A stretch of DNA of 64,000 bases. Source: Bacteroidota bacterium. Lineage in GTDB: Bacteria > Bacteroidota > Bacteroidia > B-17B0 > Aurantibacillaceae. Every line of letters begins with the position of its first letter. The first letter of the stretch is position 1. The notes beneath the pieces were generated by a model. That model saw only the letters and a list, made by a program, of their open reading frames with translations, had not been told where the DNA came from and did no database searches. Shown here in pieces: positions 31,576 through 54,448 of the stretch. The stretch is from the NCBI GenBank assembly GCA_025362395.1, contig JANYGK010000011.1, positions 1-64,000 on the forward strand, written 5' to 3'. The translations under genes and the position numbers were made by a program.

Positions 31576-32610
31576 CTATGCACTTCGTTTGCGTTTAAAT
31601 ATGATATTAAATATGGCCGCAAAAAAGTATTTGGTATCAGTCGTATAAGATTTCTTTAATTTTTCAATTAAATATTTTCTTTCTGCTTCCAACACTTCTT
31701 CTACATTCCCTTTCATATTTAAGGACACATAGGGTGGTATACAACCGGGCTTTTGCGCAAGCCTAAGAGAAAGTAAGTCTTTAGGGATGTCTTCTGCATA
31801 ACGACTGCTGATAGGCCTTACTCCAACCAGTCTTAAATCACCTTTTACTACATTAATTAATTGGGGCAGCTCATCCAACCAATACCTTCTTAGGTATTTT
31901 CCCCAAGGTGTAAGCCTAAAATCGTTAGCAGGCTTGCCGGTGTCCGCATAACCGTGTACTTTTAAAATATAATCCTGCAAGTACTCTGCATAAGGATGCA
32001 TGGTACGAAATTTATAAACATAAATTATTTTCCCGTGTTTTCCTAAACGCGGCATTTTATATATAGGACCATAGCTTGCATTCATATTAAAGTCCGGTTC
32101 TTTTATTTTTTTGGAAACTACATACATTAAGCCGTTGAAGGTTTCATAATCCACAATTTCAAAACCACAGCTTGCTAAGCGCCCAAAGGTTTCTGCCTTG
32201 GAAAGTAAACGGTTTCTGCCACGGGTCAATAAAAAATAAATTTTTTTGAAGCCCCATAGCTTAGGAAGAACCCGCATAAAAATAAACTCCGTCCCAAAAT
32301 ACAAAGAACGCAACAACGGAATTTTACCTATCGGTTTTCTATGTTGCCTTGCATTAAAGGTTTCAAAGCGGCATATAAATAAATGGTCTTTATTGAGCTT
32401 TGAATTAACGCTCTCGAAAAATTTATTAATAAAACGAATGTCATTTACGCGGCTCAAATTAATAATAGCGTTACATAAACTTACATGGTTTAATATATTA
32501 AAATCGTTCGTAGTAGATACGACTAAGGTTTCTGCCGACTCCGGAGAAATATAACGTGATATATAATCATACGCCTCTTGACTCGACTTCCCAATAATTA
32601 AATTCTTCAC
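31576..32610 (-). CDS. Second bacterial sugar transferase-like protein
   Basis: GKIIYVYKFRTMHPYAEYLQDYILK...YLRRYWLDELPQLINVVKGDLRLVGVRPISSRYAEDIP. Confidence 0.85.
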   Translation of the reverse strand: MKNLIIGKSSQEAYDYISRYISPESAETLVVSTTNDFNILNHVSLCNAIINLSRVNDIRFINKFFESVNSKLNKDHLFICRFETFNARQHRKPIGKIPLLRSLYFGTEFIFMRVLPKLWGFKKIYFLLTRGRNRLLSKAETFGRLASCGFEIVDYETFNGLMYVVSKKIKEPDFNMNASYGPIYKMPRLGKHGKIIYVYKFRTMHPYAEYLQDYILKVHGYADTGKPANDFRLTPWGKYLRRYWLDELPQLINVVKGDLRLVGVRPISSRYAEDIPKDLLSLRLAQKPGCIPPYVSLNMKGNVEEVLEAERKYLIEKLKKSYTTDTKYFFAAIFNIIFKRKRSA

Positions 32611-32637: not shown

Positions 32638-34659
32638 CTACTTTTTGTGTACATCATATAATTTTGGCATTTTATTAATTGTATGGATCACGCGTTTAAA
32701 ATCCAGTCCTATTATTTCAAGATACCATCTTAATGTTTCGTAACGCACTTTATTTTCTTCATTTACTTTTACCAATGCTTTTTCTCTTGTAATCATTCCT
32801 TCCCTGATTTGATTACTTCTAAATGTATCATTTTCAGTGAAGCCGGCAACGGTATAATAAATGTAATTGTAAAAGCTTACTGTACCATCACCTATACGCC
32901 ATGTAGAATCCGTATCAATCGCTTTTTCCCAATTATACTTTTCTTTAATCAGCTTCTCTAACTCCTCCTCATCCCACTTATAATAATCGAATAAATGAAA
33001 ATAGTCTTTTTTAGGCATCAGGTAGCGCACAGCAAAGGAACCTAAACTATCAAAGACAGATTGATTTATGTAGCCCGGACTTTGAATAATGTTTTTACCC
33101 ACAAACCCAAAAAGCTTTAAATAATTTGGACCCGTTAATGAATAAATTCTTTTTTTATCAAACTTTGGTCTAAGCCCCGCGAAGCCTGTTTTGAAGTTTG
33201 TGTTTTCTAAATTATTTATTCCCCAAATGTTTAAATCAATACCGGTTTGTTTTTTCACACGGTTACAATAATAAAAAAAATATTTATCGCCTGCCATAAA
33301 CAAAGGGATCATACCCAGCTCGGGTTTTTTTAACCATGCCGTAACGTTTTTCTGTATATTCTCCCGTTTCCATTTAATATCCGCTGAAACAACTATGTTT
33401 TCCACACCCAGTTTACCGCATACTTTAGCGATATTCCTTCTTGCTAAATCGGTAACCATACCCCAATCATACGTAAAAGCGATAGGGTTTAAGCCTAGTT
33501 CCTCTTTTACTATATGCAGAGAATAAGTACTGTCCCTGCCACCGCTGAAAGGGACAATACAATCAGGGCTTCCGTCTTTACTTTTATAAGGTGTTACCAA
33601 TTTTTTCAGTTCATCAAAATTTTGAATTTGATTTTGAGTTTTATGATTTTTACAATAATTACATTGGCCTGCTATATCAAATTCAATAAAAGGAAATGTT
33701 TCAGGTAACACGCAAATGGTACAACGTTTTAATTTACTGATAGCATCAAGGTTGTTTTCAAGAATTGAATATAATTCAGATTCTTTACCCCTGTCAATAA
33801 ATTCCATAGGATCAATAACAACCTCTTTATCAAATGATCCTTTCAAATTAATACATTTAATGCTGTATTTTTTATGATTTTCAATTTTATAATTTCCTGT
33901 AAAAGCCTCCTTTTGTTTGAACAAGGTAGTTTCAAAAGAAACTGTATTTAAAATAAATCCCGTAAACGCTTTCAATTGAACAATTTTAAAATTGAGTGAA
34001 AGTTTTGATAATACTTCTTCTAAAAAATGTTTTTCAGAAGCAAACATTAAAACGTCCTTGTCTAAAACATAAAATAGCGAGCCATTATTAGTAAACAATG
34101 CGAGTTCATGCCTGTCATCAAAAAGCAAAGCGCTTGATACGGTTCCTTCAATTTTGTTTAGTGAAATTTGTATGGCTTCCGGTAGTGTTTTTATACTGAG
34201 TTCTTGTGCAATCAGACTTAATAAAACTTCGGTATCAATATCGAATTCTCTTGTAATATTCCGGTTTTCGTGCCATAAAACGTTATGGTTTACAATAATA
34301 CCATTATGTATCCCTATTAACCCGTCTTTTACAACAGGCTGGTTATTTTCCTCTTTAAGTTGTGAGCCATTAGTAACAAGCCTTGCATGACCTATTGCCC
34401 GGAATGCCTGCCCCTTGTCGTAAAGTGAAAGAGATTCTTTTAAACACTCAGAATATTCTTTGCTTTTAAGTAACTTTGTTACGGGTATATCTCCCTTAAC
34501 TAAATTAAACGTTCCGCTACTCTCATTTTTAAATACAATACCTGACGAATCATTACCGCGCGCAATAGAAACTGACGCAAGCTTGTTTAACGCAGTTTTA
34601 ATAAATGATGATGAACGACTCGAATTCTCCTTAACTATTATTCCAAAAATGCCACACAT
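32638..34659 (-). CDS. Class II glutamine amidotransferase fused to a PP-loop N-acetyl sugar amidotransferase-like domain
   Basis: N-terminus MCGIFGIIVKE (Cys1 nucleophile), HARLVTNG, NNQPVVKDGLIGIHNG; C-terminal half RCTICVLPETFPFIEFDIAGQCNYCKNH and PP-loop VPFSGGRDSTYSLHIVKEELGLNPIAFTYDWG. Confidence 0.85.
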   Translation of the reverse strand: MCGIFGIIVKENSSRSSSFIKTALNKLASVSIARGNDSSGIVFKNESSGTFNLVKGDIPVTKLLKSKEYSECLKESLSLYDKGQAFRAIGHARLVTNGSQLKEENNQPVVKDGLIGIHNGIIVNHNVLWHENRNITREFDIDTEVLLSLIAQELSIKTLPEAIQISLNKIEGTVSSALLFDDRHELALFTNNGSLFYVLDKDVLMFASEKHFLEEVLSKLSLNFKIVQLKAFTGFILNTVSFETTLFKQKEAFTGNYKIENHKKYSIKCINLKGSFDKEVVIDPMEFIDRGKESELYSILENNLDAISKLKRCTICVLPETFPFIEFDIAGQCNYCKNHKTQNQIQNFDELKKLVTPYKSKDGSPDCIVPFSGGRDSTYSLHIVKEELGLNPIAFTYDWGMVTDLARRNIAKVCGKLGVENIVVSADIKWKRENIQKNVTAWLKKPELGMIPLFMAGDKYFFYYCNRVKKQTGIDLNIWGINNLENTNFKTGFAGLRPKFDKKRIYSLTGPNYLKLFGFVGKNIIQSPGYINQSVFDSLGSFAVRYLMPKKDYFHLFDYYKWDEEELEKLIKEKYNWEKAIDTDSTWRIGDGTVSFYNYIYYTVAGFTENDTFRSNQIREGMITREKALVKVNEENKVRYETLRWYLEIIGLDFKRVIHTINKMPKLYDVHKK

Positions 34660-35447
34660 TATTTATTAAGGTATTTAAAAACGATGTTAAAATTCTTTTT
34701 TTGTAACACAACTCTATTGAAAAATGTAATTGGCAATATTTTAAAAAAAATTTCCAATATCATCCTGGTATGAGGAATAAATAACCTTCTAGGCTCCTGT
34801 ATAATTCTGAAAGGCGTTGCAAATCCCATTTTTTTTACCCATGGAGGGCTTTGCTTTGCATATCCCGAATACACATCTATCATACCACCGCATGGGATTA
34901 TAATGTTAGAGCTTAGCTCAGCTCTATAGGTGTGAACAAACTTTTCTTTTATAGGTGTTGAAATACCGATTAAAAGAATGTGAGGTTTTTGATGTTTTAT
35001 TCGTGCAACAATTTCCTTCTCTTCCGTTTGTTTATAGTAACCGTTAATACCGGGAAGCATTTTTATATTCGGATATTTTTTTTGAAGGTTCTCCATTGCC
35101 TTTCTATTTATTTCTTCTTTTGCTCCAAACAATAAAACACTTAACCTATTAGTGTTGGCGTACTCAAGTGTATAGTTAGTAATATTTGGAATGGAAATAA
35201 CAGTTTTTAATTTAAAACCGTTTAAGTAACAATACCAATTAAATTGGGTGCCATCGCAAACTAACAGATCAAATGAATTGGTTATTTCGTAAAGCCCCGG
35301 ATATTTTTTAAATAACGTAATATACCCAAGTGAATGTCCGAATAACACGATGCTGTTTTTGTTATGGATCGTTGAATAAAAAAATTCATCAATTTCTTTT
35401 AATTCGAAGTTGCTTACTTTTAATCCAAAAACGTTTAAGTGTTCCAT
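34659..35447 (-). CDS. WecG/TagA/CpsF-family glycosyltransferase
   Basis: NSFDLLVCDGTQF...LLFGAKEEINRKAMENLQKKYPNIKMLPGINGYY...PHILLIGISTPIKEKFV...CGGMIDVYSG...ATPFRIIQEPRRLF. Confidence 0.88.
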   Translation of the reverse strand: MEHLNVFGLKVSNFELKEIDEFFYSTIHNKNSIVLFGHSLGYITLFKKYPGLYEITNSFDLLVCDGTQFNWYCYLNGFKLKTVISIPNITNYTLEYANTNRLSVLLFGAKEEINRKAMENLQKKYPNIKMLPGINGYYKQTEEKEIVARIKHQKPHILLIGISTPIKEKFVHTYRAELSSNIIIPCGGMIDVYSGYAKQSPPWVKKMGFATPFRIIQEPRRLFIPHTRMILEIFFKILPITFFNRVVLQKKNFNIVFKYLNK

Positions 35448-36580
35448 TATTTAACGCCGTTCCAGAGGTTGCTTAGCTTTGCATTACCCATAATTAATTT
35501 TAATACCCTCCAAGATGTGTTGTCAATATCATAATCACTTGCAATTTTTGAATATCCTTTAGTTAATTCAAACTCTTTAATTACTAAGCGAATGCTGTCT
35601 GACACCACCTGCGGGTTAAAACCCGATAAAATAATAGTTCCCACATCCTGTGCTTCGGGCCTTTCCATAGATTGACGCAAAGAAATAGCCGGAAAATTCA
35701 GGATAGAAGATTCTTCGCTAATGGTACCGGAATCAGAAACCGTACATAACGCATTCATTTGAAGATTCACATAATCTAAAAAGCCGAACGGTGTCATGAA
35801 ATTTATGAAGGCATTCATTTTTATATCCGTGATATCTTCCAAGCGTTTTCGGGTTCTGGGGTGAGTAGATACGATCACCGGCAAATTATATTCTTCCGCC
35901 AAATGATTTAAAACTGTCATGATCTTACGCAAATTATCGGGGTTATCTACATTTTCTTCGCGATGAGTAGAAACAACAAAATATTTTTTTTCTTTTAACT
36001 TTAAAGTCTCTAGCGCCTGCGATGCTTTGATCTTAGGCATATAATGATGCAATACCTCTTTCATCGGGCTGCCTGTTAAGTAAATTCTCCGATGCGGCAA
36101 ACCTTCCGCTATTAAATGCCTGCGGGCATGCTCGGTATATACTAAATTAAAATCGGCAATGTGGTCAATTATTCTGCGATTGGTTTCTTCCGGTACATTA
36201 AAATCAAAACAGCGGTTACCTGCTTCCATGTGGAACACGGGAATGTGCATACGTTTAGCAATGTAAGCGGCCAGGCATGAGTTTGTATCTCCTAAAACCA
36301 GAAATGCATCGGGCTTTTCCAACTTTAAAACTTCTTCTGTTTTACGCATAATGTCACCAACCGAAGTACCCAAAGAAGATGTATCTACATTTAAAAAATG
36401 GTCAGGTTTTCGAAGCTCCAATTCATCAAAGAAAACCTGGTTCAACGCATAATCATAATTTTGGCCGGTATGCACAATAATATGATCAAGGTGATCATCT
36501 AACAACGACATTACACGCGATAACCGAATTATTTCAGGGCGTGTACCAACTACCGTAAGCACTTTTAATTTTGCCTTCAT
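35447..36580 (-). CDS. wecB: Non-hydrolysing UDP-N-acetylglucosamine 2-epimerase-like protein (CapG/FnlC type by context)
   Basis: LTVVGTRPEIIRLSRVM...HTGQNYDYALNQVFFDEL...HMEAGNRCFDFNVPEETNRRIIDHIAD. Confidence 0.92.
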   Translation of the reverse strand: MKAKLKVLTVVGTRPEIIRLSRVMSLLDDHLDHIIVHTGQNYDYALNQVFFDELELRKPDHFLNVDTSSLGTSVGDIMRKTEEVLKLEKPDAFLVLGDTNSCLAAYIAKRMHIPVFHMEAGNRCFDFNVPEETNRRIIDHIADFNLVYTEHARRHLIAEGLPHRRIYLTGSPMKEVLHHYMPKIKASQALETLKLKEKKYFVVSTHREENVDNPDNLRKIMTVLNHLAEEYNLPVIVSTHPRTRKRLEDITDIKMNAFINFMTPFGFLDYVNLQMNALCTVSDSGTISEESSILNFPAISLRQSMERPEAQDVGTIILSGFNPQVVSDSIRLVIKEFELTKGYSKIASDYDIDNTSWRVLKLIMGNAKLSNLWNGVK

Positions 36581-36597
36581 GATTTTACTTTTAATTT

Positions 36598-37719
36598 TTA
36601 AACTGTTACAAAAAAAGTATCCGGATCGTTCTGATCATAAAATTCATTGATCCAAAAAATAGTATAGAGCTCCTCTGTACCAATATTTTTAATATTATGA
36701 GTATACCATACCGGCATATCCACAAAAGAAGGATTTTCTCCGTCGAGCTCAAAAGACAGTATTTCACTTGTTCCTATTTTTCTTAATTCAATTAACGCTT
36801 TACCTTTTATAACTGCGAATCGTTCGACCTTGCGTGTATGAAAATGATTACCGCGCGTTATACCGGGAACGGTAGTTGAAAAAGAAACCTGCCCGCCACT
36901 GTTTAGCTTTACGGTTTCTACAAAGGAGCCGCGCGGGTCTGTATTTTTGGTAAGGTGAAAAGGGAAAAATGTTTTATGTTCGATATAACATAAAAAAGTT
37001 ATAAATAAATTTTTTTCAAAAGGCGAATTCAGATCGGGGAACATTCCCTTTTCAAAATAATTCTCCTTAAAACTTTTAAGCTTCTGTAATAAATCAGACA
37101 CCTTAACGGTAGCCGTGTGCTCAATTACTTTATGTGTCACCTGCGAAGCATCATCGGTAATAGAGGTTATAAATTCCTTTATTAATTCTGCCACGTAAAT
37201 CAATTTTACTTCTGCGTCTACATCAATTTTTGGTGTTTCGTTATGTGTAAGCCGGTGACAGAATGTTGCCACCACTGAATTGTAATATGGATGCCCAAAC
37301 GGGCCAAAAACATTAGGGATTACTAAGCCGGTAAATTTAGCGTTATTGGTTTTTGCCCAATTTTCAAATAATAACCGTCCTTCTTTTTTTGATTTCCCGT
37401 AAGGGTTATCACGTTCTTCCTGCGATGAGGAAGAGAAAAGTACATGCGGCTTAGAATTTGTTTTTTCGAGAGCGGTAATTAATTTCTTAACTAAGCTGAT
37501 ATTTGTATCATAAATAACAGTTGCATCATTATGCCGGTTCATGGCTGCCAGGTGAATAATAACATCGCAACCGGAAACAAAGTTCTCAAGTTTAAGCTCG
37601 TCCTCAAAAAAATCTTTTTCAAACAGCACACAGGTATACTGTTCTGTTTGCAGCGCCAGGGTATTATAGAGGTGGTAACCCATAAATCCTTTTTGCCCCG
37701 TAATTCCAACTTTCATCAT
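36598..37719 (-). CDS. capF: Capsular polysaccharide reductase CapF/FnlB-like (SDR + C-terminal cupin)
   Basis: GITGQKGFMGYHLYNTL... and C-terminal cupin TDPRGSFVETVKLNSGGQVSFSTTVPGITRGNHFHTRKVERFAVIKGKALIELR. Confidence 0.9.
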   Translation of the reverse strand: MMKVGITGQKGFMGYHLYNTLALQTEQYTCVLFEKDFFEDELKLENFVSGCDVIIHLAAMNRHNDATVIYDTNISLVKKLITALEKTNSKPHVLFSSSSQEERDNPYGKSKKEGRLLFENWAKTNNAKFTGLVIPNVFGPFGHPYYNSVVATFCHRLTHNETPKIDVDAEVKLIYVAELIKEFITSITDDASQVTHKVIEHTATVKVSDLLQKLKSFKENYFEKGMFPDLNSPFEKNLFITFLCYIEHKTFFPFHLTKNTDPRGSFVETVKLNSGGQVSFSTTVPGITRGNHFHTRKVERFAVIKGKALIELRKIGTSEILSFELDGENPSFVDMPVWYTHNIKNIGTEELYTIFWINEFYDQNDPDTFFVTV

Positions 37720-37732
37720 AGTATATTAATCT

Positions 37733-38173
37733 TTATAATGTCCATGTATCTTTATCAAATCTATACATATCCCCGATCGATTCTTCCAAAGTTAAATCAG
37801 AAAAGACCACAACTTTTGAATCTTCCTCTAACGCTTTAAATCCGTTAGCATAACCTGCCTCAATAGTTAACACACAGGGTTCTTGTGCTTGCAACACCTG
37901 TTTTGCAACCTGTATTCTTGCTGATGGTGTTTCCCAATGATCAGGCTTAACCCAGCCAAAAAGAAAAGAACCTTTAGTTACAAAAAAGTGTTTCCGTTCA
38001 ATTTTATGACCTTGCCATGCTCTTATTATAGATACGTCGGGGTGCGTAACTGTATAAAACCGTTTTACGTTTTGTAAATTAAACTCATTTACAAAACTAA
38101 GCGTTCCTCTTTCATCCGTATGTTTATTTCCTTTGATTAACATTTTTCCGTTATAATTATTTAATATCGTCAC
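37733..38173 (-). CDS. Cupin / WxcM-like or RmlC-like sugar epimerase-isomerase family protein
   Basis: HTDERGTLSFVNEFNLQNVKRFYTVTHPDVSIIRAWQGHKIERKHFFVTKGSFLFGWVKPD; cupin fold pattern. Confidence 0.75.
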   Translation of the reverse strand: MTILNNYNGKMLIKGNKHTDERGTLSFVNEFNLQNVKRFYTVTHPDVSIIRAWQGHKIERKHFFVTKGSFLFGWVKPDHWETPSARIQVAKQVLQAQEPCVLTIEAGYANGFKALEEDSKVVVFSDLTLEESIGDMYRFDKDTWTL

Positions 38174-39167
38174 GGATTATATCAAGCCTCAATAATAATT
38201 GCTTAGTTTCTTCTATATTTAACCGTTTTGTATTGTGCGAATGGTACTCCTCAATTTTGGACATATCTTCCAATCCTTCCGAAAAAAAACTTTCATAATT
38301 AAGATCTCTTGTGTCAGCAGGTACACGGTAATAGTTTCCCATGTCCTCTGCCTTCACCATATCTTCGCGGTTCACCAATGTTTCATATAACTTTTCGCCG
38401 TGTCGTGTGCCTATTATTTTAATTTCGTTGGTAGCTTTATATAGTTCCAACAATGCTTTTGCTAAAGTTTCAATGGTTGCAGCAGGCGCTTTCTGCACAA
38501 ATATATCTCCCGGCTTGCCATGTTCAAAAGCGTATAATACTAAATCTACGGCATCTTCCAACGTCATCATAAATCGTGTCATATTAGGGTCGGTAAGCGT
38601 TAAAGGTTTCCCCGCTTTAATTTGCTCTATAAATAAAGGAATAACGGAGCCTCTTGATGCCATAACGTTCCCATAACGCGTTCCGCAAAAAACAGTCCCT
38701 TCCTCGAGGTTCCGCGATTTCGCCACCATTACTTTTTCCATCAATGCTTTCGACATTCCCATAGCGTTAATAGGGTACGCTGCCTTATCGGTGCTTAATA
38801 CCACTACATTTTTTACATGGTATTTTTCGGCAGCTGTCAATACGTTTTCAGCCCCTATAATATTTGTTTTAACCGCTTCCATCGGAAAAAATTCGCAGGA
38901 AGGCACTTGCTTTAAAGCAGCCGCATGAAAAATGTAATCCACTCCTTTTATAACATTCTCTACTGCCTGCGCATCTCTTACATCGCCGATATAAAATTTT
39001 ACTTTGTCACTGTTTAAAGCCTTTCGCATATCATCCTGCTTTTTTTCATCACGACTGTAAATCCTGATCTCACTAAATGTATCTGAATTTAAAAACCGCT
39101 TAAGTACAGTATAGCCGAAGGAACCTGTTCCCCCGGTGATTAATAATTTTTTACCGGTGTTTGTCAT
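38157..39167 (-). CDS. capE: UDP-GlcNAc 4,6-dehydratase/5-epimerase, CapE/FnlA-like
   Basis: LLITGGTGSFGYTVLKRFLNSDTFSEIRIYSRDEKKQDDMRKAL...HAAALKQVPSCEFFPMEAVKTNIIGAENVL. Confidence 0.92.
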   Translation of the reverse strand: MTNTGKKLLITGGTGSFGYTVLKRFLNSDTFSEIRIYSRDEKKQDDMRKALNSDKVKFYIGDVRDAQAVENVIKGVDYIFHAAALKQVPSCEFFPMEAVKTNIIGAENVLTAAEKYHVKNVVVLSTDKAAYPINAMGMSKALMEKVMVAKSRNLEEGTVFCGTRYGNVMASRGSVIPLFIEQIKAGKPLTLTDPNMTRFMMTLEDAVDLVLYAFEHGKPGDIFVQKAPAATIETLAKALLELYKATNEIKIIGTRHGEKLYETLVNREDMVKAEDMGNYYRVPADTRDLNYESFFSEGLEDMSKIEEYHSHNTKRLNIEETKQLLLRLDIIRDDIK

Positions 39168-44303: not shown

Positions 44304-45463
44304 TTAAAATAAATCTTTAACAGTTTATCGCCATAACGCTCCATATCACAAAATTCTTTTATCATTTTATAGCCATTATGGCCCATTTCTGAACGAAGTT
44401 GTTCATCAAAAATCAGTGTTGTTATCTTTGAAACGAGTTGTTCAATATTACCTGCCTCTATTAAAAAACCATTAACGCGATCTTTGACATAAAAAGTGGA
44501 AGAGCCGGTCGCAATTACCGGCTTTTTTAATGCCATTGCTTCTATAATATCTCTGCCCCAAGGGTTTCCTGATAAATCAGGCCTTACGTAAACGTCCAAT
44601 AAAGAAACCTCCTCCAAAACATTAAACGTAAAAGGAACCAATTGGAGATTTTTAATTGAATTCTTAAGGATAAGGGTATCTACTTTCTTCTTATAGCTTC
44701 TATTAAAAATCCATTTTAATATTCCTTTTATCGACGTATCTCTATGAGGATAACCAATAATACAAAACTCTACTTCAATGTTTTTGTTAATTAAAATATC
44801 ATTAATTCGTTTAATTGCTTCAATAAAAACCAAGTGCCCTTTAATCAAAACAAAATTAGCGCACATGCCTATTTTTATAGATTTCGATTTCTTTCTTGTT
44901 TTTTTCAGTATCAGGTCTGTAAGATTAAAATCATGAGGATTTGACAATATACTTGTTTTATTCGACTCAGGAAAAAAACGTAATTCATTTGGTGAAATTG
45001 CGATTATTTTATCAGCATACTTCAATGTGTTTTTAATAATATATTCATCTATTTTATGAGAAGGGCCGAAAGGGAGCATTTCTCTAAAATGCACTATAAT
45101 TTTACACGTGGTTTTCTCCTTGATATCGCGTAAAATATTAGAAAAAACACTTGTATTTATATGAAAAATATCTATTTTTTCTCTTTTTATAAATTCAATT
45201 ATTTTTGTTGGATAATATGTAATGTTGTTTTCAAACTCTGTAAAAGAAATAGTTCCTTCTGAATAGCTATATACGCCGGGTATATCTATTTCCGTAATGG
45301 ATTTTGAATGAATAAATTGTTTACTCAAAACCTTATTCAGTCTTTTATTTCTTTTTAAAACCATGTGCATTTCTACCTTATTGCCCAATGCCTGCTGCAT
45401 TACAAGAAGGCTTTTAGTAGCGCCTCCATAACCTAAACCGTGTTGCAAAAATAAGACTTTCAT
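44300..45463 (-). CDS. Glycosyltransferase family 4-like
   Basis: FLQHGLGYGGATKSLLVMQQAL...VYVRPDLSGNPWGRDIIEAMALKKPVIATGS. Confidence 0.88.
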   Translation of the reverse strand: MKVLFLQHGLGYGGATKSLLVMQQALGNKVEMHMVLKRNKRLNKVLSKQFIHSKSITEIDIPGVYSYSEGTISFTEFENNITYYPTKIIEFIKREKIDIFHINTSVFSNILRDIKEKTTCKIIVHFREMLPFGPSHKIDEYIIKNTLKYADKIIAISPNELRFFPESNKTSILSNPHDFNLTDLILKKTRKKSKSIKIGMCANFVLIKGHLVFIEAIKRINDILINKNIEVEFCIIGYPHRDTSIKGILKWIFNRSYKKKVDTLILKNSIKNLQLVPFTFNVLEEVSLLDVYVRPDLSGNPWGRDIIEAMALKKPVIATGSSTFYVKDRVNGFLIEAGNIEQLVSKITTLIFDEQLRSEMGHNGYKMIKEFCDMERYGDKLLKIYFN

Positions 45464-46590
45464 TTTTTAAAGAGGGCTCTGTATACGTTCCCGATCTTAT
45501 GCTTTCTTTTAGCGAACGAATTATAATACCAATGATCTTTTTGTTCATTTACCATGATCTTATCAAAATCGCCTTCTGTAATGTTCATCTTTTTTAAAAA
45601 GTAACTCAAATTATTTTTATATGCTTCTTCGGTCAACAAAGGTTTTTTTAATTCTTCCAACGCCTCTTCTCGTGCCATTTGCCCCGAACAGATTAAGCTT
45701 GAATAATGCGCCCTTCTTTTATCCACTTTAAATTTTTTGGTAAGTATTACATCCTGGTAAAACTTTGTAAAGATGGATTCATCATGTTTATTCCCGTAAT
45801 TTTTCCAATCCAACTTTTCTTCCAACACTTTCAAAGCCTCTTTTTTATTATATTCTAAATAATTAAGGATCGGGATCAGCTTCATGCTGTTTTTCCCAAA
45901 AGTAAGGTATTGGTAGAAGTTTATAAACTTAAACGTTGTTAGCTTTAAGCCCGCACCTTCTTTTTTGTAAATACTTTTAATATTTAAGCTATCCATTTTA
46001 TAAGGATAAAGCCATGAAGCAGGCATCACCGATTCGGATTGAAAATTATATCCTGATAAAAAATACTTTATATTATACTCTTTACTGATTCTATAAATAG
46101 TTTCCCCGATCGCATGGTCGGTCAAAAGTTCAAGGTCAATTACGGAAGCTTTTAAAAGGGCTGTTTGCAAAGCCTTAAATTCTTCCCAATTAATAACATG
46201 TGTATTTAAATCAATTTTAAGCTTATCAACTATATTTTCAATGTTTTTAACTGCCTGTTCAGAATTCCATCCATTATCCAGGTGAACCGCCAACGGCCTT
46301 AAACCAAATTGCTTTACTGCAATATATGCTAAATACGAACTGTCAACTCCTCCGCTCAACCCTATTAAGCAATCATAGTTTCTATTGTTTCCCGCTTCTT
46401 TTATTTCTTTTATAATAGCATTAAGTTTATTTGCTTTAACAACGGGATCTATAAAAATTTCTTTGTTTAAACGCTGAATCGCGCCCGTACAGTGGTTACA
46501 ATATCCTTTGTCATTAAACAGTATATCAGGATCAGTTGTATCCATAACACACCTGTTGCATATTTGATAAGATAGAATTTGTTTACTCAT
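45460..46590 (-). CDS. wbpG: N-acetyl sugar amidotransferase (WbpG-like)
   Basis: QICNRCVMDTTDPDILFNDKGYCNHC and PP-loop CLIGLSGGVDSSYLAYIAVKQFGLRPLAVHLDNGWNSE. Confidence 0.9.
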   Translation of the reverse strand: MSKQILSYQICNRCVMDTTDPDILFNDKGYCNHCTGAIQRLNKEIFIDPVVKANKLNAIIKEIKEAGNNRNYDCLIGLSGGVDSSYLAYIAVKQFGLRPLAVHLDNGWNSEQAVKNIENIVDKLKIDLNTHVINWEEFKALQTALLKASVIDLELLTDHAIGETIYRISKEYNIKYFLSGYNFQSESVMPASWLYPYKMDSLNIKSIYKKEGAGLKLTTFKFINFYQYLTFGKNSMKLIPILNYLEYNKKEALKVLEEKLDWKNYGNKHDESIFTKFYQDVILTKKFKVDKRRAHYSSLICSGQMAREEALEELKKPLLTEEAYKNNLSYFLKKMNITEGDFDKIMVNEQKDHWYYNSFAKRKHKIGNVYRALFKK

Positions 46591-52588: not shown

Positions 52589-54448
52589 TTACAACAGTTT
52601 ATTTAATTGTAAAAGCGCCCATATAAAATTGCCATTGTCTTTTTTACCTTTTTTGTTTTCTTCTACAATTTTTAAAACCGTTTCGCGATCTAAAATTCCA
52701 TTCACTTTTTGCAGGTTCGCGTCTAGTATTGTATCAAAACCGGTATGCTTAAACCATTCCCTTAAAGGGATGGCAAAGCCGCGTTTGGGAGCCTTTAAAA
52801 CAGAGGCAGGTAAATTTTTCCCGATGCTGTTTCGCAGCACACTCTTCAGTTCCCAAGCCGGCATTTTTACATTTTTATGTACACGGGCCATAAATTCCAC
52901 TAAACGATAATCTAAAAAAGGCAGCCGGGTTTCAATAGAATTAGCCATGCTCATGCGATCCACCTTTACCAAAAAATCGTTTGGCAGACTGTGCATGTAA
53001 TGCACATACATTAATTTATAAAAATCATCTTTAAAGCTGCATTTTTTAAGCAAGGCTTCAAAATAAGTTTCAACAGGAATAACATTTTTTATGTTGCGGG
53101 TAAGTATTTTAATATCACTTAAATCCGTAAATGCAGTTTGCTGCGCCATACGACTATAAAACGGCAACCCGATTGTTTTTAATGAATTATGCATTTTTAA
53201 AAGTTTATACCGCCATGAACCTGTAACGCATTTGCTTAGTGCATAAAGCGCTGCCGTAAGCAGGTGTCTTAAAAATTTGGGTAAATACCTTTGCAGTGTT
53301 TGAGAAACTTTAATTCCCTTATAAGCTGTATATCCGCCTAATGCCTCGTCGCCGCCGTCGCCCGTTAATACCATTTTTACTTTTTGTGAAGCAAAGCGAG
53401 ATACCACATCGGTAGGGATAGCCGATGAATCTCCGAAAGGTTCATCATAATGAAACGCGATGCGATCGATCATCTTTTCAAAATCATCCGGCAACACAGT
53501 GCTCTTGTAATGTTCTGTTTTAAATTTACCGGCTACTTCAGCGGCTAAGTCACTTTCGTCAAAATTTTTATCTTCAAATCCTATTGTAAATGTTTTTATG
53601 GGCGTTGGCGATTGTGCAGCCATTAAAGATACAATGGCAGACGAATCTAAACCGCCGCTTAAAAAAGCCCCGAAAGGCACACTGCTTCGCATTCTTATGT
53701 TAACGGCATCTGTCAGGAGTGTTGCAAATGCAGCATATACGGTTTGTTTATCCGTTAACATTTCTTTTTCGTCAACCTGTGGGAAATCCCAGTATTTTTT
53801 TTCCGAAACCTCTCCCCTTTTCACTATTAAGTAATGCCCGGGCATTAATTTATAAATGTTGTTATAAAATGTATCCGGAGCAGGAATGTTAGTTAAGGCC
53901 AAATAAATTTCTATCAATTCGGTCCTGATCTCTTTTGGCACACCAAATTTTAAAACAGATTTTATTTCAGATCCAAAAATAAATGTATCATGATACACAG
54001 CATAATTTAAGGGCTTTTCACCAAGACGATCCCGCGATACAAAAAGAGATTCCTTAACTTCATCCCATAAAGCGAAAGCCCACATGCCGTTAAATTTATT
54101 CTGGCATTCGTATCCCCATTGCTCATAGGATTTTATAATGACCTCTGTATCCGAATCGGTTTTAAAGAAATGCCCTAACGTTTTAAGTTCTTCTTTCAGC
54201 TCAATATAATTATATATTTCACCGTTAAATATCAGTATTTTTTTACCGTCGGCACTGCGCATAGGCTGGTCACCTGTACTCAAATCAATAATACTCAACC
54301 TTCTGTGACCTAAGGCTATATTATCATTTATATAAAAGCCTTCACCGTCGGGCCCCCTATAAGCAATGCAATCGGTCATGGCTTTTAACAGGGTGCCATC
54401 CGCAGCCTTATCTTTATTAAAATGAATATATCCGGTAATTCCACACAT
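52589..54448 (-). CDS. asnB: Asparagine synthetase (glutamine-hydrolysing)
   Basis: MCGITGYIHFN...YRGPDGEGFY...GHRRLSIIDLSTGDQPM...GAFLSGGLDSSAIVSLM. Confidence 0.93.
   Translation of the reverse strand: MCGITGYIHFNKDKAADGTLLKAMTDCIAYRGPDGEGFYINDNIALGHRRLSIIDLSTGDQPMRSADGKKILIFNGEIYNYIELKEELKTLGHFFKTDSDTEVIIKSYEQWGYECQNKFNGMWAFALWDEVKESLFVSRDRLGEKPLNYAVYHDTFIFGSEIKSVLKFGVPKEIRTELIEIYLALTNIPAPDTFYNNIYKLMPGHYLIVKRGEVSEKKYWDFPQVDEKEMLTDKQTVYAAFATLLTDAVNIRMRSSVPFGAFLSGGLDSSAIVSLMAAQSPTPIKTFTIGFEDKNFDESDLAAEVAGKFKTEHYKSTVLPDDFEKMIDRIAFHYDEPFGDSSAIPTDVVSRFASQKVKMVLTGDGGDEALGGYTAYKGIKVSQTLQRYLPKFLRHLLTAALYALSKCVTGSWRYKLLKMHNSLKTIGLPFYSRMAQQTAFTDLSDIKILTRNIKNVIPVETYFEALLKKCSFKDDFYKLMYVHYMHSLPNDFLVKVDRMSMANSIETRLPFLDYRLVEFMARVHKNVKMPAWELKSVLRNSIGKNLPASVLKAPKRGFAIPLREWFKHTGFDTILDANLQKVNGILDRETVLKIVEENKKGKKDNGNFIWALLQLNKLL

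Follow-up and report, generated by a model that had tools for sequence, protein, structure and literature searches.

Sugar amidotransferases of the WbuX/WbpG/LfnA type are single-domain proteins of about 380 amino acids, often encoded beside HisH- and HisF-like genes. These N-acetyl sugar amidotransferases (NASATs) are defined by a PP-loop and a CXXCXn[GN]XCXXC motif, with zinc found in LpNASAT, and activation with ATP, yielding AMP and PPi, has been proposed for them (PMC10607449). In Escherichia coli O145, WbuX is reported to act in FucNAm synthesis (PMC10607449), and its gene lies together with its partners in one cluster (WbuX-HisH-HisF2-FnlA-WbjC-WecB). The sole solved structure of the WbuX/WbpG type is without partners and substrate, and in the literature searched we found no reconstitution of ammonia supply or use by these enzymes.

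Fusions of a glutaminase with a PP-loop synthetase are familiar from asparagine synthase and GMP synthetase. Asparagine synthase B and the AsnB-like sugar amidases (such as WbpS) combine a class II glutaminase with a PP-loop ATP domain, the AsnB-type synthetase being an Asn_synthase domain that forms a carboxamide. In GlmS, the glutaminase delivers ammonia to a fused C-terminal domain.

The window analysed here, a stretch of 64,000 nucleotides from a Bacteroidota genome, contains, within a surface-sugar gene cluster, a gene that unites features of both groups. Profile and fold comparisons confirm its predicted product as a class II glutaminase with intact catalytic residues joined to a WbuX/WbpG-type NASAT. 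As far as we have found, this pairing in one chain is apparently undescribed, even if the glutaminase plus PP-loop plan itself is not new. The gene and its parts are as follows.

32638..34659, minus strand: fusion gene, class II glutaminase plus NASAT synthetase, 673 aa, with an ATG start (profiles, alignments and model)
33916..34659, minus strand: class II (Ntn) glutaminase, residues 1 to about 248 (Pfam and GlmS-type profiles)
32641..33729, minus strand: WbuX/WbpG-type N-acetyl sugar amidotransferase domain, residues 311-673 (TIGR03573, 8WEX)
33652..33723, minus strand: tetracysteine Cys313, Cys316, Cys333 and Cys336, predicted zinc ligands (alignment; zinc in LpNASAT, PMC10607449)
33529..33546, minus strand: PP-loop SGGRDS, residues 372-377, predicted ATP-pyrophosphatase site (invariant in 71 relatives)
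32881..32901, minus strand: WRIGDGT motif, residues 587-593, a signature of the fusion subfamily (alignment of relatives)

A sequence-only reading of this DNA had proposed a glutaminase fused to a Cys-rich and PP-loop module, and both halves were recovered by profile and by fold; the motifs that it quoted (MCGIFGI, CTICVLPETFPFIEFDIAGQCNYC and FSGGRDSTYS) are all present in the open reading frame. The Pfam scan placed PF13537 GATase_7 (7e-12) and PF13522 (3e-10) at the N-terminus, while the NCBIfam search placed a GlmS-type model on residues 1-216 (3e-18) and confined the match of the asparagine synthase model TIGR01536 to residues 2-253. As in GlmS, the putative Ntn nucleophile is a cysteine directly after the initiator methionine. 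Cys2, Arg34, Arg93, Thr96, Asn119-Gly120 and Asp142 are invariant in a 71-sequence alignment, and we take them to correspond to GlmS Cys1, Arg26, Arg73, Thr76, Asn98-Gly99 and Asp123, presumably the nucleophile and the glutamine-site residues. The two proteins differ in what follows, as the C-terminal domain of GlmS is a sugar isomerase whereas that of the fusion is predicted to be an ATP-dependent PP-loop synthetase.

Pfam does not recognise the C-terminal half. The WbuX model TIGR03573 matches residues 311-648 (1.9e-42), with a score of 145.9 bits that lies below the curated cut-off of 203.2 bits (NCBIfam release 20). An ordinary asparagine synthase in this position would have contradicted the sequence-only reading; PF00733 Asn_synthase is absent from the 673 residues in the Pfam scan and the WbuX profile matches in its place, which rules that candidate out. 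Compared with AsnB and WbpS, the fusion has the same plan, and probably the same logic, but lacks PF00733 and carries the NASAT tetracysteine. It shares with WbuX, WbpG and LfnA (TIGR03573, 8WEX) the tetracysteine zinc motif, which fits CXXCXn[GN]XCXXC (C313-C316, G331-C333-C336), the SGGxDS PP-loop, Asn409, Asn482, Arg625 and the predicted fold. N409, N482 and R625 are common to both groups of stand-alone WbuX proteins, and D458, W577 and S615 to the larger group. Among the 71 aligned relatives, all of which match both the WbuX and the GlmS models, the NASAT motif residues are invariant or nearly so.

Among solved structures, the C-terminal half is closest in sequence to Legionella NASAT (8WEX) and the N-terminal half to GlmS, and the predicted structure pairs them likewise. 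An AlphaFold2 model of the fusion reached a mean pLDDT of 92.7 and a pTM of 0.92, and the domain arrangement is therefore confidently predicted. In Foldseek searches the C-terminal part of the model matched 8WEX (E 7e-15, probability 1.00, TM 0.57 by target length), so that the synthetase half is predicted to have the overall NASAT fold, and the N-terminal part matched GlmS (3e-15). Among the matches listed, no PDB entry joined both kinds of domain.

Existing annotation does not capture this architecture. No model of NCBIfam release 20 scores above its cut-off for the window protein, and homologues on plasmids are labelled 7-cyano-7-deazaguanine synthase, glucosamine 6-phosphate synthetase or hypothetical. 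A QueC (queuosine) or GlmS function, as these labels would imply, was rejected, each name fitting at most one half. An assigned function for the same fusion would likewise have told against the sequence-only reading, and none was found in NCBIfam, in the plasmid labels or in the open-access literature searched.

The fusion is broadly distributed. Within the order, 15 of 87 genomes have a match: a long form of about 673 aa occurs in seven genomes (49-71% identity, the window itself aside) and a form of about 608 aa in nine (46-49%), one genome having both. Orthologues in five other genomes of the order are 66-71% identical over residues 1 to about 670, and the maintenance of the frame at this identity, and across phyla, excludes a frameshift or assembly artefact. 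The sequence-only reading had suggested searching databases for the architecture, and a scan of GTDB species genomes duly found it across numerous bacterial phyla and in a small number of archaea, with 512 confirmed relatives. The best 80 of these 512 carry labels from 19 named phyla (40 Bacteroidota, two archaeal), and almost all align over residues 1 to about 668; as many relatives come from metagenome-assembled genomes, individual phylum labels may be mistaken. An even sample of 395 Bacteroidota genomes has the fusion-clade C-terminal domain in seven (1.8%), six times within frames of at least 609 aa; the seventh is interrupted by an apparent transposase fragment, and apart from this broken gene no fusion-clade synthetase in the sample is without a glutaminase. 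At one locus (L155:7975-8898) a remnant of the fusion gene, from about residue 432 on, is joined to an apparent transposase fragment. A phage collection gave no match to the fusion. Judged from these sequences, the fusion is an old and widespread subfamily and no local accident.

In a quick tree the fused WbuX domains group as a single clan (support 99), which is compatible with a single origin of the fusion. The branch between them and stand-alone WbuX measures about 2.5 changes per column. Their exact neighbour is unsure because the tree warns of long branches. The E. coli O145 protein groups with the WbuX of locus L143, which adjoins HisH, HisF and FnlABC, while the fusions stand apart as one separate clan, so the tree does not indicate the acceptor. 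Given the long branch and the score under the WbuX cut-off, the acceptor or chemistry of the fused domain could differ from those of its stand-alone relatives. With this score, and without the HisH/HisF feature, we class the fusion synthetase as a sister subfamily that would work like NASAT, and not as a classical TIGR03573 member.

Another covalent partnership of WbuX is found in Bacteroidota. Single open reading frames of 687-797 aa (L138:11800-14010, L149:8738-11125, L150:8961-11348, L151:7667-9874 and L152:7391-9451) have a WbuX domain at the C-terminus and, as read by eye, an apparent glycosyltransferase at the N-terminus, GT4-like in L149 and L150 and GT2-like in L152. Here the partner is apparently a glycosyltransferase and the WbuX part is classical, which suggests that amidation may be coupled to glycosyl transfer.

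The surroundings of the fusion gene in the window point to a possible acceptor. The relevant neighbours are listed here.

38157..39167, minus strand: FnlA, UDP-GlcNAc 4,6-dehydratase/5-epimerase (TIGR04130, 5.6e-166)
37733..38173, minus strand: small 146-aa protein encoded between FnlA and FnlB (same position conserved in L030 and L033)
36598..37719, minus strand: FnlB, WbcJ/WbjC-type reductase of UDP-L-FucNAc synthesis (NF047837, 1.7e-78)
35447..36580, minus strand: FnlC/WecB-type UDP-sugar 2-epimerase (Pfam and NCBIfam profiles)
34659..35447, minus strand: WecG/TagA/CpsF glycosyltransferase directly upstream, its stop codon overlapping the fusion ATG by one base
31576..32610, minus strand: PGT-like sugar transferase directly downstream (Pfam Bac_transf)
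45460..46590, minus strand: stand-alone, unfused WbuX paralogue in the same cluster (TIGR03573, 275 bits)

On one strand the order runs FnlA, 146-aa protein, FnlB, FnlC, WecG, fusion, PGT-like, WbaP-like, Wza and Wzc, with one-base overlaps at both the FnlC/WecG and the WecG/fusion junctions. The 146-aa protein has no Pfam or NCBIfam match and gives by eye the impression of an FdtA/WxcM-like protein; its position between FnlA and FnlB is also kept in L143. In the PGT-like protein the Bac_transf match begins at profile position 35, and the N-terminal membrane part of the model is missing; a PGT-like relative of 652 aa in L155 has a hydrophobic N-terminal extension.

A cluster that combines FnlA, FnlB and FnlC with an amidotransferase, like that of E. 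coli O145, is thus present in the window, and the order FnlABC-WecG-fusion is repeated in L029, L030, L033 and L080. Of the 87 genomes of the order, four have FnlB, and in each of them it lies upstream of the fusion at a distance of three genes. As this link consists of four genomes sharing one gene block, co-inheritance of the block is possible. In a sample of the class, FnlB was found in 17 of 290 genomes, four of which have WbuX/WbuZ within about 6 kb (G100, G124, G216 and G291; places compared by eye); the window has the fusion, and most of the 17 have neither the fusion nor the WbuX/WbuZ pair. Since FnlABC stands beside the fusion in some genomes and beside the WbuX/HisH/HisF trio in others, fusion and trio look like alternatives for amidating the FnlABC product. 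Across the family the picture is more varied. Besides the window, FnlB is near only four of 81 fusion loci, and the commonest neighbours within three genes are a PGT-like protein (32 of 81), a DUF354-type protein (27) and a WecB-like epimerase (19). In L110 and L113 (genomes G005 and G015), fusions 66-71% identical to that of the window lie directly after a gene for a 369-aa protein and near AsnB-like genes, without FnlABC. As these are close relatives, the acceptor may change even among closely related fusions, and as most fusion loci elsewhere are without FnlABC, acceptors probably vary across the family.

The probable source of ammonia also distinguishes the fusions from stand-alone enzymes. 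The sequence-only reading had contrasted this protein with WbpG relatives served by HisH and HisF, and the contrast is borne out: of 20 sampled stand-alone WbuX genes, 13 have HisH/HisF genes beside them, whereas among about 86 fusion loci just three have such genes nearby. A separate stand-alone WbuX is also present in two of the three; in the third, L080, HisH/HisF follow just after the fusion gene, and the contig edge falls within HisF. No HisH/HisF genes were found in the window. Elsewhere in its genome, contig C79 carries a HisH/HisF pair at a distance of about 11 kb from a further WbuX, and a separate HisA/HisF pair on C27 looks like the histidine operon. An AsnB-like gene is near four of the seven stand-alone WbuX loci without HisH/HisF (L136, L140, L142 and L146) and four of the 13 with them, which are small numbers to compare; the window has an AsnB gene at 52589-54448. 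At L067:4838-6001, a WbuX-like protein encoded near a fusion gene has apparently lost most of its zinc-binding cysteines (RCTKGIWDITIPGISFDSEGASNYSK).

These observations enable us to propose a model in which one fusion protein does the work of WbuX, HisH and HisF. Glutamine would be cleaved at Cys2 of the N-terminal Ntn domain and the ammonia would be passed within the chain to the PP-loop/zinc domain at the C-terminus. This domain would use ATP, releasing AMP and PPi, to activate an amino sugar at its N-acetyl carbonyl. Nitrogen would then replace the N-acetyl oxygen to give an acetamidino group, each of these chemical steps being drawn by analogy from the two parent families. The acceptor here would most likely be N-acetyl-L-fucosamine made by FnlA, FnlB and FnlC of the same operon, yielding FucNAm, and amidation could take place on the nucleotide sugar or on a lipid-linked unit that the neighbouring WecG and PGT-like enzymes assemble. 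From the sequence evidence we consider it highly probable that the protein is a glutamine- and ATP-dependent sugar amidotransferase. We give the conversion of FucNAc to FucNAm, as the reaction, roughly an even chance, and the statement as a whole, a self-contained glutamine- and ATP-dependent amidotransferase with internal ammonia transfer that converts FucNAc to FucNAm, seems to us somewhat more probable than its negation.

The main competing explanation keeps the enzyme class and changes the acceptor, which could be a different N-acetyl sugar or else the first or second sugar in lipid-linked form; FnlABC would then merely travel alongside to supply another residue of the repeat. The predominance of fusion loci that lack FnlABC and have DUF354-type, WecB-like and PGT-like neighbours agrees with this, as do the absence of FnlB from G005 and G015 and the placement of the fused clade away from E. 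coli O145 WbuX. It accounts less well for the finding that within the order FnlB never occurs without an adjacent fusion, and that elsewhere, when a complete amidotransferase set lies near FnlABC, it consists of the known WbuX/HisH/HisF genes. We regard a different acceptor as a serious but rather unlikely alternative.

It is improbable, by comparison, that the product of the synthetase is the carboxamide of a sugar uronic acid, as is thought for AsnB-like WbpS-type enzymes. Sugar enzymes that form carboxamides usually have a class II glutaminase as partner, and a UDP-hexose dehydrogenase is present at three fusion loci; the C-terminal domain, however, resembles NASAT and not Asn_synthase, and an E. 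coli Ugd query, which distant WecC-type enzymes may escape, found no UDP-hexose dehydrogenase in the window. The sequence-only reading had left the choice between amide and amidine open; an acetamidino group on FucNAc is favoured over a uronic-acid carboxamide because of the FnlABC context, the conserved NASAT residues and the lack of a detected dehydrogenase. That the glutaminase is a relic or a regulator, with ammonia taken up free or received from HisH/HisF encoded elsewhere, is very improbable. The HisH/HisF pair on C79, apart from the HisA/HisF pair on C27, could serve such a purpose, as could the pair in L080, but the catalytic residues are invariant in 71 relatives from many phyla and HisH/HisF are almost absent near fusions.

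Looking beyond the window, we tentatively suggest, at less than even confidence, that the fusions are an old NASAT subfamily spanning many phyla, whose class II glutaminase interface and acceptor range are its own, the latter probably comprising lipid-linked sugars of the neighbouring PGT-like and WecG or DUF354-type enzymes, and that they make amidino or other amidated sugars as yet undescribed in most of these organisms. A single chain with an attached glutaminase would be easier to assay in vitro and to use in structural work on the ammonia route. Its recognition would set right the current annotation of this family as queuosine or glucosamine enzymes, and amidino sugars would become predictable from genomes across many phyla where a HisH/HisF marker would miss them.
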